This document shows, one piece after another, positions 15,629 through 24,329 of a stretch of DNA of 47,298 nucleotides. The position numbers and the translations under genes are program-made. The stretch is taken from contig JAGSHI010000011.1 in NCBI GenBank assembly GCA_023954635.1, forward strand, positions 1 to 47,298, given 5' to 3'. Origin of the DNA: Bacteriovoracaceae bacterium. Its GTDB lineage: Bacteria > Bdellovibrionota > Bacteriovoracia > Bacteriovoracales > Bacteriovoracaceae. How positions within the stretch are numbered: position 1 is the first letter of the stretch; each line of letters starts with the position of its first letter. The notes below the pieces were generated by a model that was given only the letters and a program-made list of their open reading frames with translations, was not told where the DNA came from and did no database searches.

Positions 15629-17704
15629 ATGAATGATTTTTTTGCAAAATTTAAAGCACTGACTCAAAACTCTGACTTGTTTGTTGGAATTGGGTTGATG
15701 CTTGTTCTTTCGGTAATGATTGTCCCAATCCCGCCAATGCTATTAGATCTACTTCTCGCTTTGACTCTTGCAATATCGATCACGATTTTATTAGTTTCTA
15801 TTTATACCAAGAAGCCTTTGGATTTTAATACTTTTCCATCAGTTCTTCTTGTTATGACTCTTTTTAGATTATCCCTAAACGTTGCTTCTACAAGAAATAT
15901 TCTTTTAAGAGGTGGCGCAGATGGAACAGCTGCCGCTGGGCAGATCATTAGATCATTTGGTGAGTTTGTTGTTGAAGGGAATTATGTTGTCGGACTGATC
16001 GTTTTTATCATTCTCGTTATTATCAACTTTATGGTTATTACAAAAGGTGCTGGTAGGGTTGCTGAAGTTGCAGCAAGATTCACCTTAGATGCAATGCCTG
16101 GTAAGCAAATGGCAATCGATGCTGATTTAAATGCAGGACTGATTGATGATGCAGAAGCAAAAAGAAGAAGAGCTGAAGTTGCTGAAGAAGCAGACTTTTA
16201 CGGTTCGATGGATGGTGCTTCTAAATTCGTAAGAGGGGATGCCATTGCTGGTATTTTAATTACCGCAATAAATATTTTAGCTGGGATTATTGTTGGTGTG
16301 GCCCAAAATGGAATGGATGTATCAGCAGCTGCTGAAACATTTACTCTACTTACTGTAGGGGATGGACTTGTCTCACAGATTCCTGCCATTATCATTTCTA
16401 CTGCTGCTGGTATTATCGCAACCAGAAATACTTCAGAAACAAATCTAGGTAATCAAATTGGAAAACAATTTAAGTTGCACCCAAAAGCTCTCTATTTAGC
16501 AGCTTCTGTCCTTGCCATTTTTTCCTTTATTCCAGGTCTTCCTATATTTCCTTTTTTATCTATTTCACTTGTTCTTGCCTTTGTAGCGAATAGAATTGAA
16601 AAATCTGTTGCAAGAGATGAAATCAAGGCCACTCAAGAAGTTCAAGAAGAGAAGAAGGCAACTCCTGATACTCTTGAAGATCTTCTTGCCATTGAGCTCG
16701 TTGAGCTTGAAGTTGGATATGGTTTAGTTAACTTAGTCGACTCTGAACAAAATGGTGATCTACTTGAAAGAATCACTCATATTAGAAAGCAGTTTGCCCT
16801 GGACTGGGGAGTGATTATTCCTTCAGTTAGAATTAAAGATAATCTAGAACTTAAGCCTGGTGGTTATTCTATTAAGGTAAAAGGAATGGAGATAACCTCT
16901 GGTGAACTACAGCCAGATCATTTCATGGCGATGGATCCAGGATCTGTTATTGAAGAAATCGATGGAATGAAAACTGTTGAGCCAGTTTTCGGTCTCCCTG
17001 CAGTTTGGATTACGGATGATCAAAAAGAAGATGCTCAGTACAATGGATATACTGTAGTAGATCTATCTACTGTTATGGCCACTCACTTGACAGAAATACT
17101 CAAGACTAACCTTCATGAGTTATTTGGAAGACAGGAACTTGTCAGAATTATGGATAATTTCAAAGAGTCTCACCCTAAAATTGTCAACGATTTGATTCCT
17201 GATATACTTAAGTTAGGTCAAGTTTTAAAAGTATTACAGAACCTTTTAAGAGAAGGAGTCTCCATCAGGGACCTTAGGACGATACTTGAAACATTAGCTG
17301 AGCATGGATCTAGTATTAAAGATGCAGATGGACTAACGGAAGCGGTTAGGCAGTCTCTTTATAGAACAATTACGGATTCAATAAGAGGAGATCAGGGAGA
17401 TATTCCATTGTTCACTCTTGATAGAGGGATTGAAGAATCAATTGCAGGAAATCTAATTCAAACTGAGCAGGGTCAACAACTATCTCTAGATCCAAAAGTT
17501 ACTCAGCATATTCTTTCAAGTCTGAATGAAAAAATTGAAGAAGCTACTAGTATGGGTGAGAAGATGGTTGTTCTTTGTTCACCAATTATAAGAAATCATT
17601 TTAAGAGACTTACTGAAAAATTCATCCCGAATTTAATTGTTGTAAGTCATAACGAGTTAAGTCCTGATGCTAATATCAGGTCTCTAGGTACGGTGAGGTT
17701 GTAG
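15629..17704 (+). CDS. flhA: Flagellar export protein FlhA
   Basis: FlhA is the large nonameric export component that docks chaperone-substrate complexes. The 691-residue protein has eight TM segments in its N-terminal half with FPSVLLVMTLFRLSLNVAST, the FHIPEP-family loop FTLDAMPGKQMAIDADLNAG, and the QIPAIIISTAAGIIATR segment. A cytoplasmic domain (about 340-691) contains VELEVGYGLVNLVD, PSVRIKDNLELKPGGY, FGLPAVWI and LRDLRTILETL-type sequence. The last codons end 1 base before flhF begins. Length and motifs are normal. Confidence 0.98.
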   Translation: MNDFFAKFKALTQNSDLFVGIGLMLVLSVMIVPIPPMLLDLLLALTLAISITILLVSIYTKKPLDFNTFPSVLLVMTLFRLSLNVASTRNILLRGGADGTAAAGQIIRSFGEFVVEGNYVVGLIVFIILVIINFMVITKGAGRVAEVAARFTLDAMPGKQMAIDADLNAGLIDDAEAKRRRAEVAEEADFYGSMDGASKFVRGDAIAGILITAINILAGIIVGVAQNGMDVSAAAETFTLLTVGDGLVSQIPAIIISTAAGIIATRNTSETNLGNQIGKQFKLHPKALYLAASVLAIFSFIPGLPIFPFLSISLVLAFVANRIEKSVARDEIKATQEVQEEKKATPDTLEDLLAIELVELEVGYGLVNLVDSEQNGDLLERITHIRKQFALDWGVIIPSVRIKDNLELKPGGYSIKVKGMEITSGELQPDHFMAMDPGSVIEEIDGMKTVEPVFGLPAVWITDDQKEDAQYNGYTVVDLSTVMATHLTEILKTNLHELFGRQELVRIMDNFKESHPKIVNDLIPDILKLGQVLKVLQNLLREGVSIRDLRTILETLAEHGSSIKDADGLTEAVRQSLYRTITDSIRGDQGDIPLFTLDRGIEESIAGNLIQTEQGQQLSLDPKVTQHILSSLNEKIEEATSMGEKMVVLCSPIIRNHFKRLTEKFIPNLIVVSHNELSPDANIRSLGTVRL

Positions 17705-17705
17705 T

Positions 17706-19160
17706 ATGTATGTTCGTAAATTTGAAGCGGAAACCCTAGAAGAAGCGTTGAGAGATATCAAGCACGAGCTTGGCCCTGATGCGATTATCTTGAAAACGGT
17801 AACTAATAAAGGACTTAAAGGTGCCTTTAAGAAAAAGAGAATTGAAATAACAGCTGCTATCTCTGAAAAGAGTTATACAAAAAAAGCAAAAGTAGATCAT
17901 GTTCTTACTTCGGATCAACAACAAACTTTTTATTCAAACAAAGCTTCATATATTTCTAACATGATTGATAATCACTCTGACAATGACACCGGAAGTACTT
18001 CAGAAGTATCTGGTGGTGGATATGGAAAAGTTGCTTTAAACAGACAAGTTGTAAGCAATAAAACAAAAGAAATCTCTAGTTCAATTAAGTCAGGCCTAGA
18101 TGATTTCCTCGGTGGAGTTTCAGAAAAGTTTGAATTATCAAGAGAGATGCCAAGAGAAAATTTCAGAGAAGCAGAGAGACAAGAAGCTCCAGAGGTGACT
18201 GAAGTTTCACTAGAAGACATGCAGTTTGAAGACTTTGGAGACTCAGTTCTTGAAGCTGAGCCTACGAGAAGAGAGGAGCCTGTTACTACAAGCAACGAAG
18301 CTCTCGACGATGCTTATAGCAAGATTGAATCTTTAGAGAAGAAACTTTTTGAGCTAACTAAGAATATAGAAAGAATTGAGAAAACAGAGCCAGTTGGGAT
18401 CTATCAACTAAGAAATACTCTTTGCAGTCTCGATGTAGCTGAAAAATCTATTCAAAGAATTATCAAAAAAGCTTCTTTCGAGCTATCGAGAGAAGACCTT
18501 GAAGATACAGACCTCGTGTTTGAATTTGCACTAAGAGAAATGGTGGCTTCGATAAATACAGCGATGCCACTTTTTTCTTCTACAGATGCGGCTAGTCAGC
18601 CAGTTGTTACAGTTTTACTTTCAGAAACTAGTAATGGGCAATCAAGTATGATTCAAAAAATTGCGGCCTTAAGAGAGAACTCTGTAGTCGTAAGAAATAC
18701 CCTTGCAGAAGAGAAACCTTCAAACTTTGCAGATAAAGTTTTTCAGATTGATGTCGTTCAAAGTGGAAGCATTTCTGAGATTGTTTCAGAGTGTCGAAAA
18801 GCTGTTGAAGAAGGCAAATCAGTCTTTATCGATTACAAAGTTTTCGGTAAAGAAAGTGATGAAACTAAGAAGTTTGTTGATGGGTTAAGAAGGTCTTTTG
18901 ACAAGGTGGAAGTCTTGGTCTCTCTATCTTCTATTCACTCTGAACTTTATAATAAGAAAGTGGCCAATAGATATAAATCTTTGGCCGATGGCATGGTGAT
19001 CACATGTTTAGATCTTTGTTTAAATTATGGCGCACTGTTTAATATAAGCGAAGAATTTCATGAACTGCCATTCAAGTTTTACGGAACTGGAGAAGTGATA
19101 CCGGATGACCTCGAAGCTGCGACCGCCGAAAGGATTTTGGCGGGAATATTTCAGTTCTGA
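17706..19160 (+). CDS. flhF: FlhF-like protein with degenerate GTPase domain
   Basis: FlhF is an SRP-type GTPase that sets the site and number of polar flagella. The 484-residue protein has the typical FlhF N-terminus (MYVRKFEAETLEEALRDIKH, ELGPDAIILKT), a long polar linker and an NG-like C-terminal region ending in GTGEVIPDDLEAATAERI, the family's GQ-x-VPDDLE end. The nucleotide-binding motifs are changed: the P-loop place reads SETSNGQSS (306-314) instead of GPTGVGKTT, the DTAGRS place reads DYKVFGKES (376-384) and the TKLDE place reads TCLDL (433-437); no DTYR motif is found. Position between flhA and flhG secures identity. Binding and hydrolysis of GTP are probably lost, so FlhF may act as a scaffold. 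Confidence 0.88.
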   Translation: MYVRKFEAETLEEALRDIKHELGPDAIILKTVTNKGLKGAFKKKRIEITAAISEKSYTKKAKVDHVLTSDQQQTFYSNKASYISNMIDNHSDNDTGSTSEVSGGGYGKVALNRQVVSNKTKEISSSIKSGLDDFLGGVSEKFELSREMPRENFREAERQEAPEVTEVSLEDMQFEDFGDSVLEAEPTRREEPVTTSNEALDDAYSKIESLEKKLFELTKNIERIEKTEPVGIYQLRNTLCSLDVAEKSIQRIIKKASFELSREDLEDTDLVFEFALREMVASINTAMPLFSSTDAASQPVVTVLLSETSNGQSSMIQKIAALRENSVVVRNTLAEEKPSNFADKVFQIDVVQSGSISEIVSECRKAVEEGKSVFIDYKVFGKESDETKKFVDGLRRSFDKVEVLVSLSSIHSELYNKKVANRYKSLADGMVITCLDLCLNYGALFNISEEFHELPFKFYGTGEVIPDDLEAATAERILAGIFQF

Positions 19161-19203: not shown

Positions 19204-20100
19204 ATGTCCATGAAAAATGCTCAAAAATGGCTGTTATCTCAAAACAGCTTCAATGAAAACTCCACATCATACGATGATGTAAGACTGAACCAAGGAAAAG
19301 CAATAACAATATCTGTTGCTAGCGGGAAGGGTGGAGTTGGAAAAACTTCGATCTCTCTTAAGTTAAGTAAGATGCTTGCTTCTACTGGCTACAAAGTTCT
19401 TTTAATTGATTGTGATACAAACCTTTCGAATACTGCTCTAAAGTTAGGTTTACCAATAAATAATGACTTTGAACTCTTGATGAGGTCTGTAAAAACTTTT
19501 GATGAATGTCTTTACAAGGAAGGTAAGTTTCATTTGCTATCTGCTTGTAACGGAAGTACTGAACTTTTCGAAACAGATAAGAATCATGAAAAGTTTTTAA
19601 TCGATGTATTAGTTAAAGCAGAAAATAAATATGATTATATTATTTTAGATTCTCCGGCAGGTATCGCTAAAGAAACGTTAACGTTGAACGCTTATAGTGA
19701 TCATCGCTTTGTTGTAGTGACTCCAGATAAATCTTCAATAACGGATAGCTACTCTTTATTAAAGATTCTTAATAAGAAATATGGAATCTGTGAGAATCAT
19801 TTAATTGTAAATAAAGTTTCAAATAAAAATCAGTACAAAAGAATAGTTAAAACCTTGAGTGAAACAGTCGAAAACTTTCTCTCGTGTCGTCTCCAAGTAC
19901 TTGGAGGTATTGAATTTCAGGCAGGCGAAGTCGACCTGTTTGACGGGATTCTCATGGGGGAGGCAAAATCTTCTCTTCACCAAAGTTTCACTAATCTCCT
20001 TGGCAGGTTCACCGAACAGAGTGTGTGCGAGCATTTACCCAATCAGGTCATGCTCAACGGATCAAGTCAGAAAAGACAGGAAGTCCAACCAATCTGTTAA
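19204..20100 (+). CDS. flhG: MinD-like ATPase FlhG (FleN/YlxH)
   Basis: FlhG is a MinD/ParA-type ATPase that limits flagellar number and normally stimulates FlhF. The 298-residue protein has the deviant Walker A motif SGKGGVGKTS (40-49) with both lysines, the switch I region LIDCDTNLSNT and switch II ILDSPAGIAKETL, so ATP hydrolysis should be intact. The N-terminal helix that in other FlhG proteins reads DQAxxLR and activates FlhF reads NAQKWLL here and lacks the Arg. GGAGACAGG precedes ATG 19204; ATG 19210 is an alternative. No C-terminal amphipathic membrane helix is obvious. It lies 43 bases after flhF and 12 before fliA. Confidence 0.93.
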   Translation: MSMKNAQKWLLSQNSFNENSTSYDDVRLNQGKAITISVASGKGGVGKTSISLKLSKMLASTGYKVLLIDCDTNLSNTALKLGLPINNDFELLMRSVKTFDECLYKEGKFHLLSACNGSTELFETDKNHEKFLIDVLVKAENKYDYIILDSPAGIAKETLTLNAYSDHRFVVVTPDKSSITDSYSLLKILNKKYGICENHLIVNKVSNKNQYKRIVKTLSETVENFLSCRLQVLGGIEFQAGEVDLFDGILMGEAKSSLHQSFTNLLGRFTEQSVCEHLPNQVMLNGSSQKRQEVQPIC

Positions 20101-20112
20101 GACAAGGAGCGT

Positions 20113-20901
20113 TTGATGTCGTCTATTGCCAAGAAATTAAAGAACCTAAAAGATTACCGGTCTACAATGGACCCAAAGGTTAAAGACGAAATAGTTATAG
20201 AATATGCTCCCCTTGTAAAATATATCGCTCAAAAAATTGCTTCAAGATTACCTTCAAACATCGAATTAGATGATCTTATTTCATGTGGTGTTATTGGACT
20301 CATGGATGCAATCCAAAAGTTTGATCCAACTCGAGATAATAAGTTTAAAACATATGCAGAATTTAGAGTTAGAGGAGCTATTCTTGACGAGCTGCGTGCT
20401 CAAGACTGGGTTCCAAGAAGTGTTAGAGAAAAATCAAAATTAGTTGAGAGGGCATATTCTAAGCTGGAGAGTGAGCTTGGTAGACCAGCGACTGATGAGG
20501 AAATGTGTAAAGAATTAGAATGTACGCAAGATGAGTTTCACGACCTTCTTAATAAAGCGAAATCAGTCTCTTTACTTAATATTGATGATAGTGCTTCTTT
20601 TAATAGAGGTGATAAGAAATTAATGGCCGGATTAATGGAAGATAGTCGATCTAATAATCCATTTTCAGCTGTTAGTTATAAAAACTCACGAGATAAAATT
20701 AAAGAAGGAATTATGGCCTTGCCTGAAAAGCAAAGACTTGTTCTTTCACTCTACTATTATGAAGACTTGAACCTGAAGGAAATTGGTCAGGTACTTGATG
20801 TCACAGAATCTAGAGTTTCTCAGCTTCATACGCAAGCAATCATGAAATTGAGAGGAAAACTCAAAAATGTTTTCGAATCTCCAGAAGATTTGGCCAGCTA
20901 A
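20113..20901 (+). CDS. fliA: Flagellar sigma factor 28 FliA
   Basis: FliA directs transcription of late flagellar and chemotaxis genes. The 262-residue protein has the sigma70-family region 2 (LVKYIAQKIASRLPSNIELDDLISCGVIGLMDAIQKFDP in parts, with FKTYAEFRVRGAILDELRAQDWVPRSVR as core 2.3-2.4), region 3 (ERAYSKLESELGRPATDEE) and region 4 with the helix-turn-helix LKEIGQVLDVTESRVSQLHTQAIMKLR. Regions 1 and a long 1.2 extension are missing, as expected for sigma28. GACAAGGAGC precedes ATG 20113 (possible second ATG 20116 region absent). It is the last recognised flagellar gene of the operon. No anti-sigma FlgM is in the window. Confidence 0.96.
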   Translation: MMSSIAKKLKNLKDYRSTMDPKVKDEIVIEYAPLVKYIAQKIASRLPSNIELDDLISCGVIGLMDAIQKFDPTRDNKFKTYAEFRVRGAILDELRAQDWVPRSVREKSKLVERAYSKLESELGRPATDEEMCKELECTQDEFHDLLNKAKSVSLLNIDDSASFNRGDKKLMAGLMEDSRSNNPFSAVSYKNSRDKIKEGIMALPEKQRLVLSLYYYEDLNLKEIGQVLDVTESRVSQLHTQAIMKLRGKLKNVFESPEDLAS

Positions 20902-20956: not shown

Positions 20957-21901
20957 ATGGAACATTTTGGAAATGATTATCAGCAAGGAAAAGAAGTACT
21001 AGAAGACCTTCGACATCTTGGTGATACAAACTTAGCTCCACTTATTTCACGGGCCCATCATCATCTTTTTGAAATTAAAAGAAAAGCTGAAAGTAATTTA
21101 AAAAACCCTGATCTCTATTCAAATGTAAACGACATACTCAATACACATGTTGAAAATATGATTCATCTTTATTTAAAGAAGAATCAAAATCTTTCAACTG
21201 TTAACCTCAACTTGGACTCTGGAAAGTGGGGATTACATGATTGGAATATGTTCGTTGAGATCATTCCTACAATTCTTACAACGTGTAGTCAGTTTGATTT
21301 TTTAAATACTGTTTCTTTTTATCAAATGGGACGTAATTTCTTTATGACTGGTGCTTTAGCACTAGGTTCAGACATTTCTAAAAATAGAAGAAATTTATAT
21401 GGTCTCTTTCGAAAATTTGTTTCGAAAAAAGTACTTATGACATACGAGCTTTCAGAATCAACTGAAGAGGGTGTTATCTTATGCACTCTAAAATTTAACT
21501 TATCTCATCGTGATGATGTTGTTTACTTTCTCCCTGTTGGACAGCACTCTCTATTTAATCTTGCTCTGACTAATTTGTTTGCTGATTACACGGTAGAAGA
21601 TTTTTCAGCATTACAAGGTGTGAAACATACATGTATAAAAATAAATGAAAAATTTGAAACGGAGAAACTTGAAACAATTCCTGATGATCTTTTTGAGAAG
21701 AATCCAGGATGTGAATTGTTTCACTTCCCATTTCTCTTTCATCCAGTATCAATGATAATCCCTGAACAAGGTTTTTTAAAAGTACTAGATGATTACCATA
21801 CAAATAAAAGTATTCCAGGGACGGAATTTAGACAAGACAACAAATCATGCCTTCAAAAGCCGTTCCATTATATCGATTTCTTTGAATTGATTACTGATTG
21901 A
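20957..21901 (+). CDS. Soluble protein of unknown function following fliA
   Basis: A 314-residue protein with no signal peptide or TM segment. The N-terminal 80 residues are helical (QGKEVLEDLRHLGDTNLAPLI, then a His-His-His cluster), followed by mixed alpha/beta sequence with WGLHDWNMFVEIIPTILTTC (about 92-112), a helix with YQMGRNFFMTGALALGSDI, and a C-terminal part rich in Phe and His (CELFHFPFLFHPVSMI). I do not recognise the family. TATAAT at 20916-20921 could be a -10 element, but no -35 at proper spacing is seen, so cotranscription with fliA is as likely. It is 55 bases after fliA and 25 before the 800-residue membrane protein, which suggests a link to motility or signalling. Confidence 0.75.
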   Translation: MEHFGNDYQQGKEVLEDLRHLGDTNLAPLISRAHHHLFEIKRKAESNLKNPDLYSNVNDILNTHVENMIHLYLKKNQNLSTVNLNLDSGKWGLHDWNMFVEIIPTILTTCSQFDFLNTVSFYQMGRNFFMTGALALGSDISKNRRNLYGLFRKFVSKKVLMTYELSESTEEGVILCTLKFNLSHRDDVVYFLPVGQHSLFNLALTNLFADYTVEDFSALQGVKHTCIKINEKFETEKLETIPDDLFEKNPGCELFHFPFLFHPVSMIIPEQGFLKVLDDYHTNKSIPGTEFRQDNKSCLQKPFHYIDFFELITD

Positions 21902-21926: not shown

Positions 21927-24329
21927 ATGATCAAGCTGACAAGGTCCTCTCACAGATTTCATTCTTTTGTTTTAATCTTATCGTTATTGTTTTTAGGTTA
22001 TGGAATTTGGCATTTCTGGAAGAAGGGACCAGCCAATATTGAAAATGTAACAATGGTTTTTGAAGCCTCTTCAAATCTTGAAAAAGTTAAAAATAATAAC
22101 GACATTAAATACGCAAAACTTCAGGTTGGAAACGATAGATCGAGAGAAGCGATTAAAACCATCATGCGACTAGAAAGAGATGTCAAAAAACTGAATTTTT
22201 TAACAGGCGAAGAAGAAGTAAGTGAAAAATTAGATAACTATATTAAACTCACAAAAAAATCTTTAGATGAAATGATTACGCTTCCAAGCCTGTCATCGGT
22301 CTTGAATGTTCTTTACTCCAGAATTCAAAGCTTCGAAAGGTTTGTTAGTTCGAATCGATGGAGAACCTTAACTCGAATATCTAAAAGAATCAGTGCTGAA
22401 CTAAAACCAGTCAGACTTAGAAAACCTGGCGTTTTAAATCAAAGAAAAATTTCTAATCTCGTGAGAACAATTAATAGAGATTTAGCCTTAATGGAGAAAG
22501 TTACTTCTTCATCAGTATTACAAAACTCTGAAAAAGACCTAATTATTGCAAGAATTCAAACTTTAAAAACAGAAGTTGTAATGCTTAAGAAGTATCTGAA
22601 GGGGCTTTCAGGATTTCATAAAAACTTTAAAGGTTTAGAATTATCGTTTGCTACCTGGCTTAAGAAAACTGAACCTGAAATCTCATTACAGCTTATTAAG
22701 TTTGAGAATAATTCAAAAATTATGCTTTTTGCTTTAGGAGGATTATTCCTTCTTCTAATGGCAGGGCTGGGACTCGGTTTTGTTATTATAAAGAAAGAGG
22801 ATAAAGAGAGAAAGAAGAGAATTGAAGGTTTCACTATTGATGCGATAAAGGATGCAATCATTCCTGTTCAGGCCAAGAATATTCAAGGCGGAAGTCGTGA
22901 GTTTTACGATGAAATAGACAAATATCGAGGGTATGTTCACAAGAGAATGAGTTTTGGAACACTCTTTAGAGATAGCCTCCCTTTTTCTTCTTTAATATTA
23001 GATTCAAATTTACATGTAGTGTGGGCCAATAAAGATTTTTATAACTCATTTGGAATTGAAGTAGATGAAGATAGAGAAAATAATATTAACTGGGACTTCC
23101 TAAATCAATTTACAAATTTAGGAGAGAATGATCCTGTTGTATCCGCTCTAAATGAAAATATTTCAGGAATCTATCAAATTCAAATCTCAGGACATGAGAA
23201 AAAAGAATCATTACCTTACGAAATGTATGTAACGCCAGTAGAGTATGCTGGTCAGTCCCGAATCGTAATATTCTTCTATCCTCTTAAATCAGTTGAGGAG
23301 ACGTTAAGTCACCAGATGAGGTCAGTAGTCGGACCTGTTTCTAGAACTCTAGAAGCAATGTCAGAAGAAAACTTTAATCCTGAGTTCAAGGAGAAGATTA
23401 AAAAAGATTTTGAAATTGCAGGAATTTCTGAACTTTATGATAAATTCGAAAATTATCATGAGAATATATCTGCGGATCGAGATTCTTACTTGATTGAGAT
23501 TGAAAAATTAGAAAATGAACTCTTTGATCAATACAAAGCAATTGATGATATTAAATTGAGGCTGGGTGAAGGCTTTAGAAACTTCAAAAAGGGTCAAGAC
23601 TCTATCTCTGAAGTTCGAAATCAAGTTATTAATCAAGTCTCCTTGAGGTCTGAAATTACTGATAGCTATAGAAAAACTATCGATACGGCCAAGAGTTTGT
23701 TCCGCGAAGAAGAGCAGTTGTTTGAAAGCTGCTTAAAACTTTCTTCCGATCTCTCTGAAAATGAGCAAGCGTTTGGATCCATTGTTCAAATAAAAGATGA
23801 ATTTAAGAAGATAAAAGTAGAAGTTAATGACTTTAAAATGAACTTGGTTCAATCTCTTGAGCAGTCACTTGTTTTACAAAGAGTTGAAGGAATGGATCTA
23901 AGAATTGAACAATCATTAAATAGGTTAAAGTCAGATATCAAAGGGTTTGATAAAATACTTTCTGAATTTAACAAAAGGTCGACTCAACTTGATGTTTCAT
24001 TGAGTAAGATTGGAATGCTGCTCGAAAGAAGTAGTCGTCCAGATCTCGATATAATGAAAGTTAACTTTGTTGATAATAAAGAAAATATAGAAGATGAAAT
24101 GTTTCAAGTCGGTAGGCTTGGAGAAAATGGAAATAAAGTAGATGAAGAAACAATTAATTCATTAAAAGACTTTTTTGATGATTATATTGTTCTCAAAGAT
24201 TCATTCAAGAAGATGGCCCTACTTGTTGATGGTTCTACCCAAACAAGGGGACAAGCAAAAACTATTATGCCTGGAGAGAGAGAGAATGAACTAGCAGAGA
24301 CAAGTCATCATAATACCCAATCTATCTAA
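21927..24329 (+). CDS. Two-TM sensor-like protein with PAS-like domain and long coiled coil
   Basis: The 800-residue protein has TM1 at about 13-30, an extracytoplasmic mainly helical domain (about 35-260), TM2 at about 264-287 (LFALGGLFLLLMAGLGLGFVI), a PAS-like domain at about 350-460 (LILDSNLHVVWANKDFYNSFG is the diagnostic strand-helix, in two parts) and an extended coiled coil from about 500 to 745 (with SLRSEITDSYRKT and LSKIGMLLERSS). The topology is that of a methyl-accepting chemotaxis protein, but the hairpin-tip motif of those receptors is not found, nor is a kinase or GGDEF domain. The C-terminal 30 residues are polar. GGAG precedes ATG 21927. It sits in line with fliA and may be a motility-linked receptor or scaffold. 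Output partner unknown. Confidence 0.78.
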   Translation: MIKLTRSSHRFHSFVLILSLLFLGYGIWHFWKKGPANIENVTMVFEASSNLEKVKNNNDIKYAKLQVGNDRSREAIKTIMRLERDVKKLNFLTGEEEVSEKLDNYIKLTKKSLDEMITLPSLSSVLNVLYSRIQSFERFVSSNRWRTLTRISKRISAELKPVRLRKPGVLNQRKISNLVRTINRDLALMEKVTSSSVLQNSEKDLIIARIQTLKTEVVMLKKYLKGLSGFHKNFKGLELSFATWLKKTEPEISLQLIKFENNSKIMLFALGGLFLLLMAGLGLGFVIIKKEDKERKKRIEGFTIDAIKDAIIPVQAKNIQGGSREFYDEIDKYRGYVHKRMSFGTLFRDSLPFSSLILDSNLHVVWANKDFYNSFGIEVDEDRENNINWDFLNQFTNLGENDPVVSALNENISGIYQIQISGHEKKESLPYEMYVTPVEYAGQSRIVIFFYPLKSVEETLSHQMRSVVGPVSRTLEAMSEENFNPEFKEKIKKDFEIAGISELYDKFENYHENISADRDSYLIEIEKLENELFDQYKAIDDIKLRLGEGFRNFKKGQDSISEVRNQVINQVSLRSEITDSYRKTIDTAKSLFREEEQLFESCLKLSSDLSENEQAFGSIVQIKDEFKKIKVEVNDFKMNLVQSLEQSLVLQRVEGMDLRIEQSLNRLKSDIKGFDKILSEFNKRSTQLDVSLSKIGMLLERSSRPDLDIMKVNFVDNKENIEDEMFQVGRLGENGNKVDEETINSLKDFFDDYIVLKDSFKKMALLVDGSTQTRGQAKTIMPGERENELAETSHHNTQSI

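Follow-up and report, generated by a model that had tools for sequence, protein, structure and literature searches.

The FlhF ortholog of the class Bacteriovoracia carries degenerate GTPase motifs and may act as a pseudo-GTPase scaffold

We analysed a stretch of 47,298 nucleotides (the window) from a draft genome of a Bacteriovoracaceae bacterium. It contains a run of flagellar export and regulation genes in the order flhB-flhA-flhF-flhG-fliA, with the following features.

15629-17704, + strand: flhA (FHIPEP), the 5' neighbour of flhF (Pfam, 908.5 bits; synteny)
17706-19160, + strand: flhF ortholog with a degenerate G domain, an open frame of 484 residues with no internal stops (profile, alignment and structure match)
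17706-17861, + strand: residues 1-52, corresponding to the FliG-interaction domain (FID) of known FlhF proteins; beta-alpha-beta-beta, highly conserved
17982-18293, + strand: residues 93-196, a variable linker of low model confidence with a conserved LDxFL at residues 131-135
18294-18590, + strand: helix 197-224 and N domain, residues 226-295 (model; TIGR03499 match)
18597-19157, + strand: pseudo-G domain, residues 298-484, with the SRP54 G-domain fold in the structure match
18621-18647, + strand: degenerate P-loop SETSNGQSS, residues 306-314, with Gln312 instead of Lys
18831-18845, + strand: degenerate G3 DYKVF, residues 376-380; Asp present, Gly and Arg gone
19002-19016, + strand: degenerate G4 TCLDL, residues 433-437; Asp present, Lys and Glu gone
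19083-19115, + strand: conserved closing-loop motif GTGEVIPDDLE, residues 460-470 (alignment)
19204-20100, + strand: flhG, encoding a MinD-type ATPase with an intact deviant Walker A motif (profile matches)
19210-19242, + strand: N-terminal helix of FlhG, residues 3-13, with WLLSQN at the position of DQAxxLR (family comparison; model)
19321-19347, + strand: deviant Walker A motif SGKGGVGKT of FlhG; GKGGVGK is invariant in 32 aligned FlhGs
20113-20901, + strand: fliA, encoding sigma-28 (profile match; synteny)
21927-24329, + strand: an 800-residue protein with coiled-coil stretches and what looks like a membrane segment, found 3' of fliA in 37/48 family loci

Relatives were collected as 48 loci from GTDB contigs and from further genomes of the class; the motif counts refer to 73 distinct sequences. 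FlhA was recovered at 47 of the 48 family loci and FlhG at 46, and the flhA-flhF-flhG order is conserved wherever the contig extends that far. Between fliA and the gene of the 800-residue protein lies a gene for a protein of 314 residues (20957-21901), conserved in position in 28/48 relatives. Both products are candidates for a pole anchor or an attack-phase factor.

To place the FlhF protein structurally, we built an AF2 model from the window and locus sequences only. Model confidence was high through most of the FID, N and G domains (G domain mostly pLDDT ~80-94). Confidence was low in the long linker (pLDDT < 50 at residues 96-132 and 135-195), at residues 330-340 and beyond residue 460, in the closing-loop region at the C-terminus. 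The FID was modelled with secondary-structure elements at residues 2-8, 11-21, 27-33 and 46-52 (pLDDT ~90 except in a loop), and the family profile matched the solved FlhF FID 9en1 weakly (E 0.007). The best PDB match of the whole model was the GDP-bound FlhF of Shewanella putrefaciens (8r9r; E 9.6e-11, probability 1.00). The Bacillus subtilis FlhF entries 2px3 and 2px0 also scored high, with FtsY and Ffh interspersed. When the family profile was compared with PDB sequences, FlhF 2px0 ranked first; influenza haemagglutinin and other coiled-coil proteins matched through the low-complexity helix region, and we discarded these hits. The structural prediction proposed in the initial annotation thus returned an FlhF fold, and the alignment bore out its claim that both ends of the protein align to FlhF. 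Predicted fold and gene position identify the 484-residue protein as the genuine ortholog of FlhF in the class Bacteriovoracia.

The GTPase motifs have diverged extensively. In place of the canonical P-loop GxxGxGKTT, the window FlhF has SETSNGQSS; the DTxR box (G2) is missing, the G3 region reads DYKVFGKES and G4 reads TCLDL. Across the 73 distinct sequences from Bacteriovoracia, Gln has replaced the P-loop Lys throughout (73/73) and Ser has replaced the first P-loop Gly in 71; 71 sequences also lack the G4 Lys, so that the G4 pattern [TS]KxD is not matched; the Gly and Arg of G3 are likewise gone from the family. The segment between the P-loop and G3 is also shorter (median 60 versus 66 residues). 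In the 55 FlhFs sampled from the phylum's other families, the first P-loop Gly and the Lys are canonical without exception. Several positions of the site have nevertheless persisted, against the initial reading that all four motifs had been replaced: the letters are exactly as that reading gave them, yet the P-loop Ser/Thr (Ser313 in the window) is retained in 71/73 sequences, the G3 Asp (Asp376) in 72/73 and the G4 Asp (Asp436) in 73/73, together with Lys318 (73/73) and Gly311 (72/73). The closing-loop motif GTGEVxPDD is kept as well. In Vibrio numbering, the equivalents of G299, K305, G380 and K437 are lost and those of T306 (as Ser/Thr), D377 and D439 are kept. From the pattern of substitutions, we infer that GTP binding has probably been lost in the FlhF of Bacteriovoracia. 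Since the G4 Asp, which reads the guanine, the P-loop Ser/Thr and the G3 Asp are conserved, weak or altered nucleotide binding may persist.

A family FlhF was present in 119 of the 129 Bacteriovoracia genomes of our collection. In a maximum-likelihood tree (quick search), 62 family rows were split off by a single branch with a support of 100 and a length of 3.05 changes per column. The G domain has been under strong purifying selection (dN/dS 0.005-0.07 in 11 pairs). Some residues are conserved specifically in the family, among them S306, Q312, R396, E413, Y415, N416, C438 and F458, each found in at least 59 of the 60 core sequences; such family-only residues show a surface under selection of its own. 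On the alignment and the tree, the motif loss is clade-wide and fixed and has a single origin. The clade-wide comparison proposed at the outset yielded one fixed substitution pattern inside the class and canonical residues outside it, more than chance would produce. The protein is FlhF by descent and, by motif, is placed outside the FlhF GTPases.

We considered whether the divergence could have a simpler origin. The window FlhF reached 63.5 bits over residues 1-285 with the FlhF equivalog profile TIGR03499, far under the cut-off of 174.15, and of the SRP54 GTPase domain, Pfam recognized no more than the C-terminal portion (26.5 bits, residues 394-482). Scores this low might mean that a different paralog, for example one derived from FtsY, fills the flhF slot and that a true GTPase FlhF is encoded elsewhere. 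We regard this as highly improbable, given the FlhF-specific B domain/FID at the N-terminus, the conserved gene order, FlhF as the closest structure and the lack of any other FlhF among the 129 genomes. In the genome of the window, a six-frame search with PF00448 recovered Ffh and FtsY as the only full SRP GTPases and no second FlhF; it missed the window FlhF itself, which shows how far this protein has diverged. The equivalog cut-off was reached in 0/129 genomes of the class, versus 102/241 genomes of a phylum sample that includes Bacteriovoracia members. That the genome is a fragmented draft of 219 contigs leaves some room for a pseudogene or a sequencing or assembly error, a possibility that the initial annotation had raised in the form of intact motifs in close homologues. 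The close homologues have the same substitutions, in 73 distinct sequences with open frames and a dN/dS well below 0.1. They include the isolates BSW11_IV (L045) and DB6_IX (L058), and the recurrence in independent assemblies rules out sequencing error. The chance that we are dealing with an artefact or a pseudogene is negligible.

Across the phylum, the motifs fall into grades. Some families have full motifs and an FlhG with DQAxxLR; Bdellovibrio-type families have a P-loop with eroded G3 and G4 and an FlhG lacking DQAxxLR; Bacteriovoracia combine full loss with a replacement helix on FlhG. The intermediate grade, with the P-loop kept, the G3 Arg eroded and the G4 Lys often so, is represented by loci L133, L138-L141, L144 and L154-L173. 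The DTxR box with its catalytic Arg is absent from the family. In nearly all FlhFs of the phylum outside it (L117-L145, f8 and others) this Arg is Lys, even where G3 and G4 are full and FlhG has DQAxxLR.

FlhG is the partner of FlhF, and in studied systems its N-terminal DQAxxLR helix stimulates FlhF, the Gln serving as a co-catalytic element (PMC12826062). None of the 59 distinct family FlhGs has this helix. Instead, 57 of them carry an N-terminal W-L-x-[S/G/A/E] motif (WLxS), which is found in 0/43 outgroup FlhGs, 11 of which have DQAxxLR. The model of the window FlhG shows the short helix at residues 3-13, then a low-confidence linker and an ordinary MinD-type domain. Among phylum outgroups, DQAxxLR occurs only alongside a kept FlhF G4 Lys (9/17 versus 0/24, in a Fisher test that ignores phylogeny). 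A rule by which loss of DQAxxLR from FlhG marks FlhF as a pseudo-GTPase was tried and rejected, because many Bdellovibrio-type families without DQAxxLR keep an intact P-loop; loss of the helix alone is no predictor of P-loop loss. One divergent family member, L030, has the Gln P-loop and no WL helix. The P-loop may thus have been lost before the FlhG helix was gained; as L030 sits on a long branch, the indication is weak.

In the textbook view, FlhF works by binding GTP and dimerising in a GTP-dependent manner. The reading that we favour, with a probability of about 0.68, is that the FlhF of Bacteriovoracia serves as a pseudo-GTPase scaffold, by which FliG is tethered to the pole, and that the ATPase of FlhG is the only nucleotide switch remaining in the pair. 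FlhF would be an ortholog that has retained its structural residues and two docking functions and dropped the GTP cycle. The GTP-sandwiched homodimer would no longer form, because the P-loop is without its Lys and glycines, the DTxR box is missing and G3 has neither Gly nor Arg. In step with FlhF, FlhG would have lost the DQAxxLR trigger of GTP hydrolysis; its new WLxS helix would most likely be a tether to FlhF or to another partner, and control of flagellar number and timing would rest on the ATP/ADP cycle of FlhG. We infer the tethering of FliG and the pole by FlhF, the binding of the WL helix and the role of FlhG as sole switch. The FID of Shewanella FlhF binds FliG by itself, and binding of NG to the pole protein HubP is apparently independent of nucleotide (PMC11236974). 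In Pseudomonas, the G domain directs polar localisation and the B domain assembly, and GTP regulates FliG binding (PMC12713375). For the Bacteriovorax strains BSW11_IV and DB6_IX, a property table that cites earlier work gives a single polar flagellum with a sheath (PMC4511183). Both carry the family FlhF, so flagellar placement evidently works with it. A point against this reading is that searches of the genome of the window for known pole anchors gave no match to DUF2802/FipA and only sub-cut-off matches to FimV_Cterm. Besides FliG itself (contig C67), two further FliG_C matches in this genome (G000) were above the cut-off (C145, 7271-7585; C49, 19861-20181). They lie in open frames of 144 and 141 residues and are possible stand-alone FliG_C proteins.

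A challenge to a scaffold also comes from the residues that have been kept. Function of Vibrio FlhF is abolished by T306A and by D439A (PMC6092412), and since the equivalents of both residues are kept in the family, some nucleotide dependence may persist. Retention of Ser/Thr313, Asp376 and Asp436 and the invariant Gln after the Gly indicate that the pocket is apparently still under selection, and a residual or altered ligand is possible. The site could accordingly still take a nucleotide or another ligand, which would make FlhF a non-hydrolysing, weak or constitutive binder: Gln312 would stand in for Lys, a Mg2+ ion could be coordinated through Ser/Thr313 and Asp376, and guanine could be recognised through Asp436. 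All of these positions are nearly or fully invariant (Gln312 in 73/73; the others as given above, with Gly311). Some P-loop proteins with a substituted lysine still bind nucleotide. Set against this are several losses: of the P-loop glycines only Gly311 is left, the DTxR box is missing, G3 is without its Gly and Arg, G4 is without its Lys and Glu, and FlhG no longer carries the GTPase activator. The segment between the P-loop and G3 is shortened as well. We consider altered binding unlikely. The initial annotation had proposed that this lineage uses FlhF as a nucleotide-free landmark, or that a different protein supplies the switch. The fixed loss across the class, the purifying selection, the lack of a second FlhF and the loss of the activator motif from FlhG all agree with that proposal; the term nucleotide-free goes too far in view of the three conserved site residues.

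A departure from a purely flagellar scaffold is suggested by genus g50. In three genomes of this genus that are 98, 94 and 99% complete (G091, G093 and G094), FlhA was not found. At the g50 loci (L202, L203, L204, L222 and L223), flhF lies directly 5' of fliA and flhG is missing; FlhG-profile matches elsewhere in these genomes were weak, at about the level of other ParA/MinD proteins. The g50 FlhF retains the Gln P-loop and the motifs IHSELYN and GTGPVIPxD, and in L222 a homolog of the 800-residue protein is encoded beside it (E 5e-25). It seems that the degenerate FlhF has outlived the flagellar export gate in g50. Its retention points to a function beyond the export apparatus; the protein might be a landmark in an attack programme controlled by FliA, which has been proposed as a global regulator of the attack phase in Bdellovibrio (PMC3627812). 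The protein could then have been exapted beyond the flagellum, for example as a landmark of the attack pole together with FliA and the downstream membrane protein. Exaptation would be compatible with a pseudo-GTPase scaffold, the flagellar role being one output among others. We hold it to be possible but doubtful: it draws on a single genus, in which the search of the genomes for flagellar genes covered FlhA and FlhG and gaps in the metagenome-assembled genomes are possible, and three further genomes without FlhA (G061, G090 and G096) show no FlhF either.

The pseudo-GTPase scaffold remains our preferred reading. It can be extended, tentatively and at well under even odds, to a class-wide pseudo-GTPase of the SRP type that arose with a simultaneous rewiring of FlhG. 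The new helix would dock on the pseudo-G domain, a two-nucleotide switch would have become an ATP-only switch, and in one lineage the pseudo-FlhF would have outlived the flagellum as a general landmark of the pole. In the literature that we searched, which did not extend to subscription papers, we found no paper linking FlhF to Bacteriovorax or to a pseudo-GTPase and none describing a pseudo-GTPase among the SRP GTPases; pseudo-GTPases are already known in other GTPase families. In a class that includes the predators Bacteriovorax and Halobacteriovorax, a switch that was thought to be central thus appears to have been dismantled and replaced. Members that are described as polarly flagellated, in a class where the GTP site is dismantled and the activator motif of FlhG is gone, amount to a natural experiment. 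The FlhF of Bacteriovoracia offers a test of which functions, such as FliG capture and docking at the pole, require nucleotide at all.

With the FlhF GTPases (B. subtilis 2PX3, S. putrefaciens 8R9R; TIGR03499), the family shares the B/FID-N-G architecture, the NG fold, the closing-loop GTG..PDD and the location between flhA and flhG. It differs from them in having Gln for the P-loop Lys and Ser for the Gly, in lacking DTxR, the G3 Gly and Arg and the G4 Lys, and in its sub-equivalog score. The family FlhG resembles FlhG/FleN/YlxH, the MinD-type activator of FlhF, in its GKGGVGKT MinD/ParA ATPase, in the flhF-flhG order and in the short N-terminal helix on a flexible linker, but this helix carries WLxS where the activator has DQAxxLR, the motif that activates the GTPase. 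FlhF of the Bdellovibrio type (f6, f11 and others) is similar to the family in its eroded G3 Arg, its often eroded G4 Lys and an FlhG without DQAxxLR, whereas its P-loop Lys and first Gly are intact and its FlhG has no WLxS helix. The pseudo-GTPase domains of p190RhoGAP and the degenerate septins likewise have a GTPase fold minus its motifs, kept as a protein-protein interface; unlike the Bacteriovoracia FlhF, they are eukaryotic and belong to the Ras and septin families.
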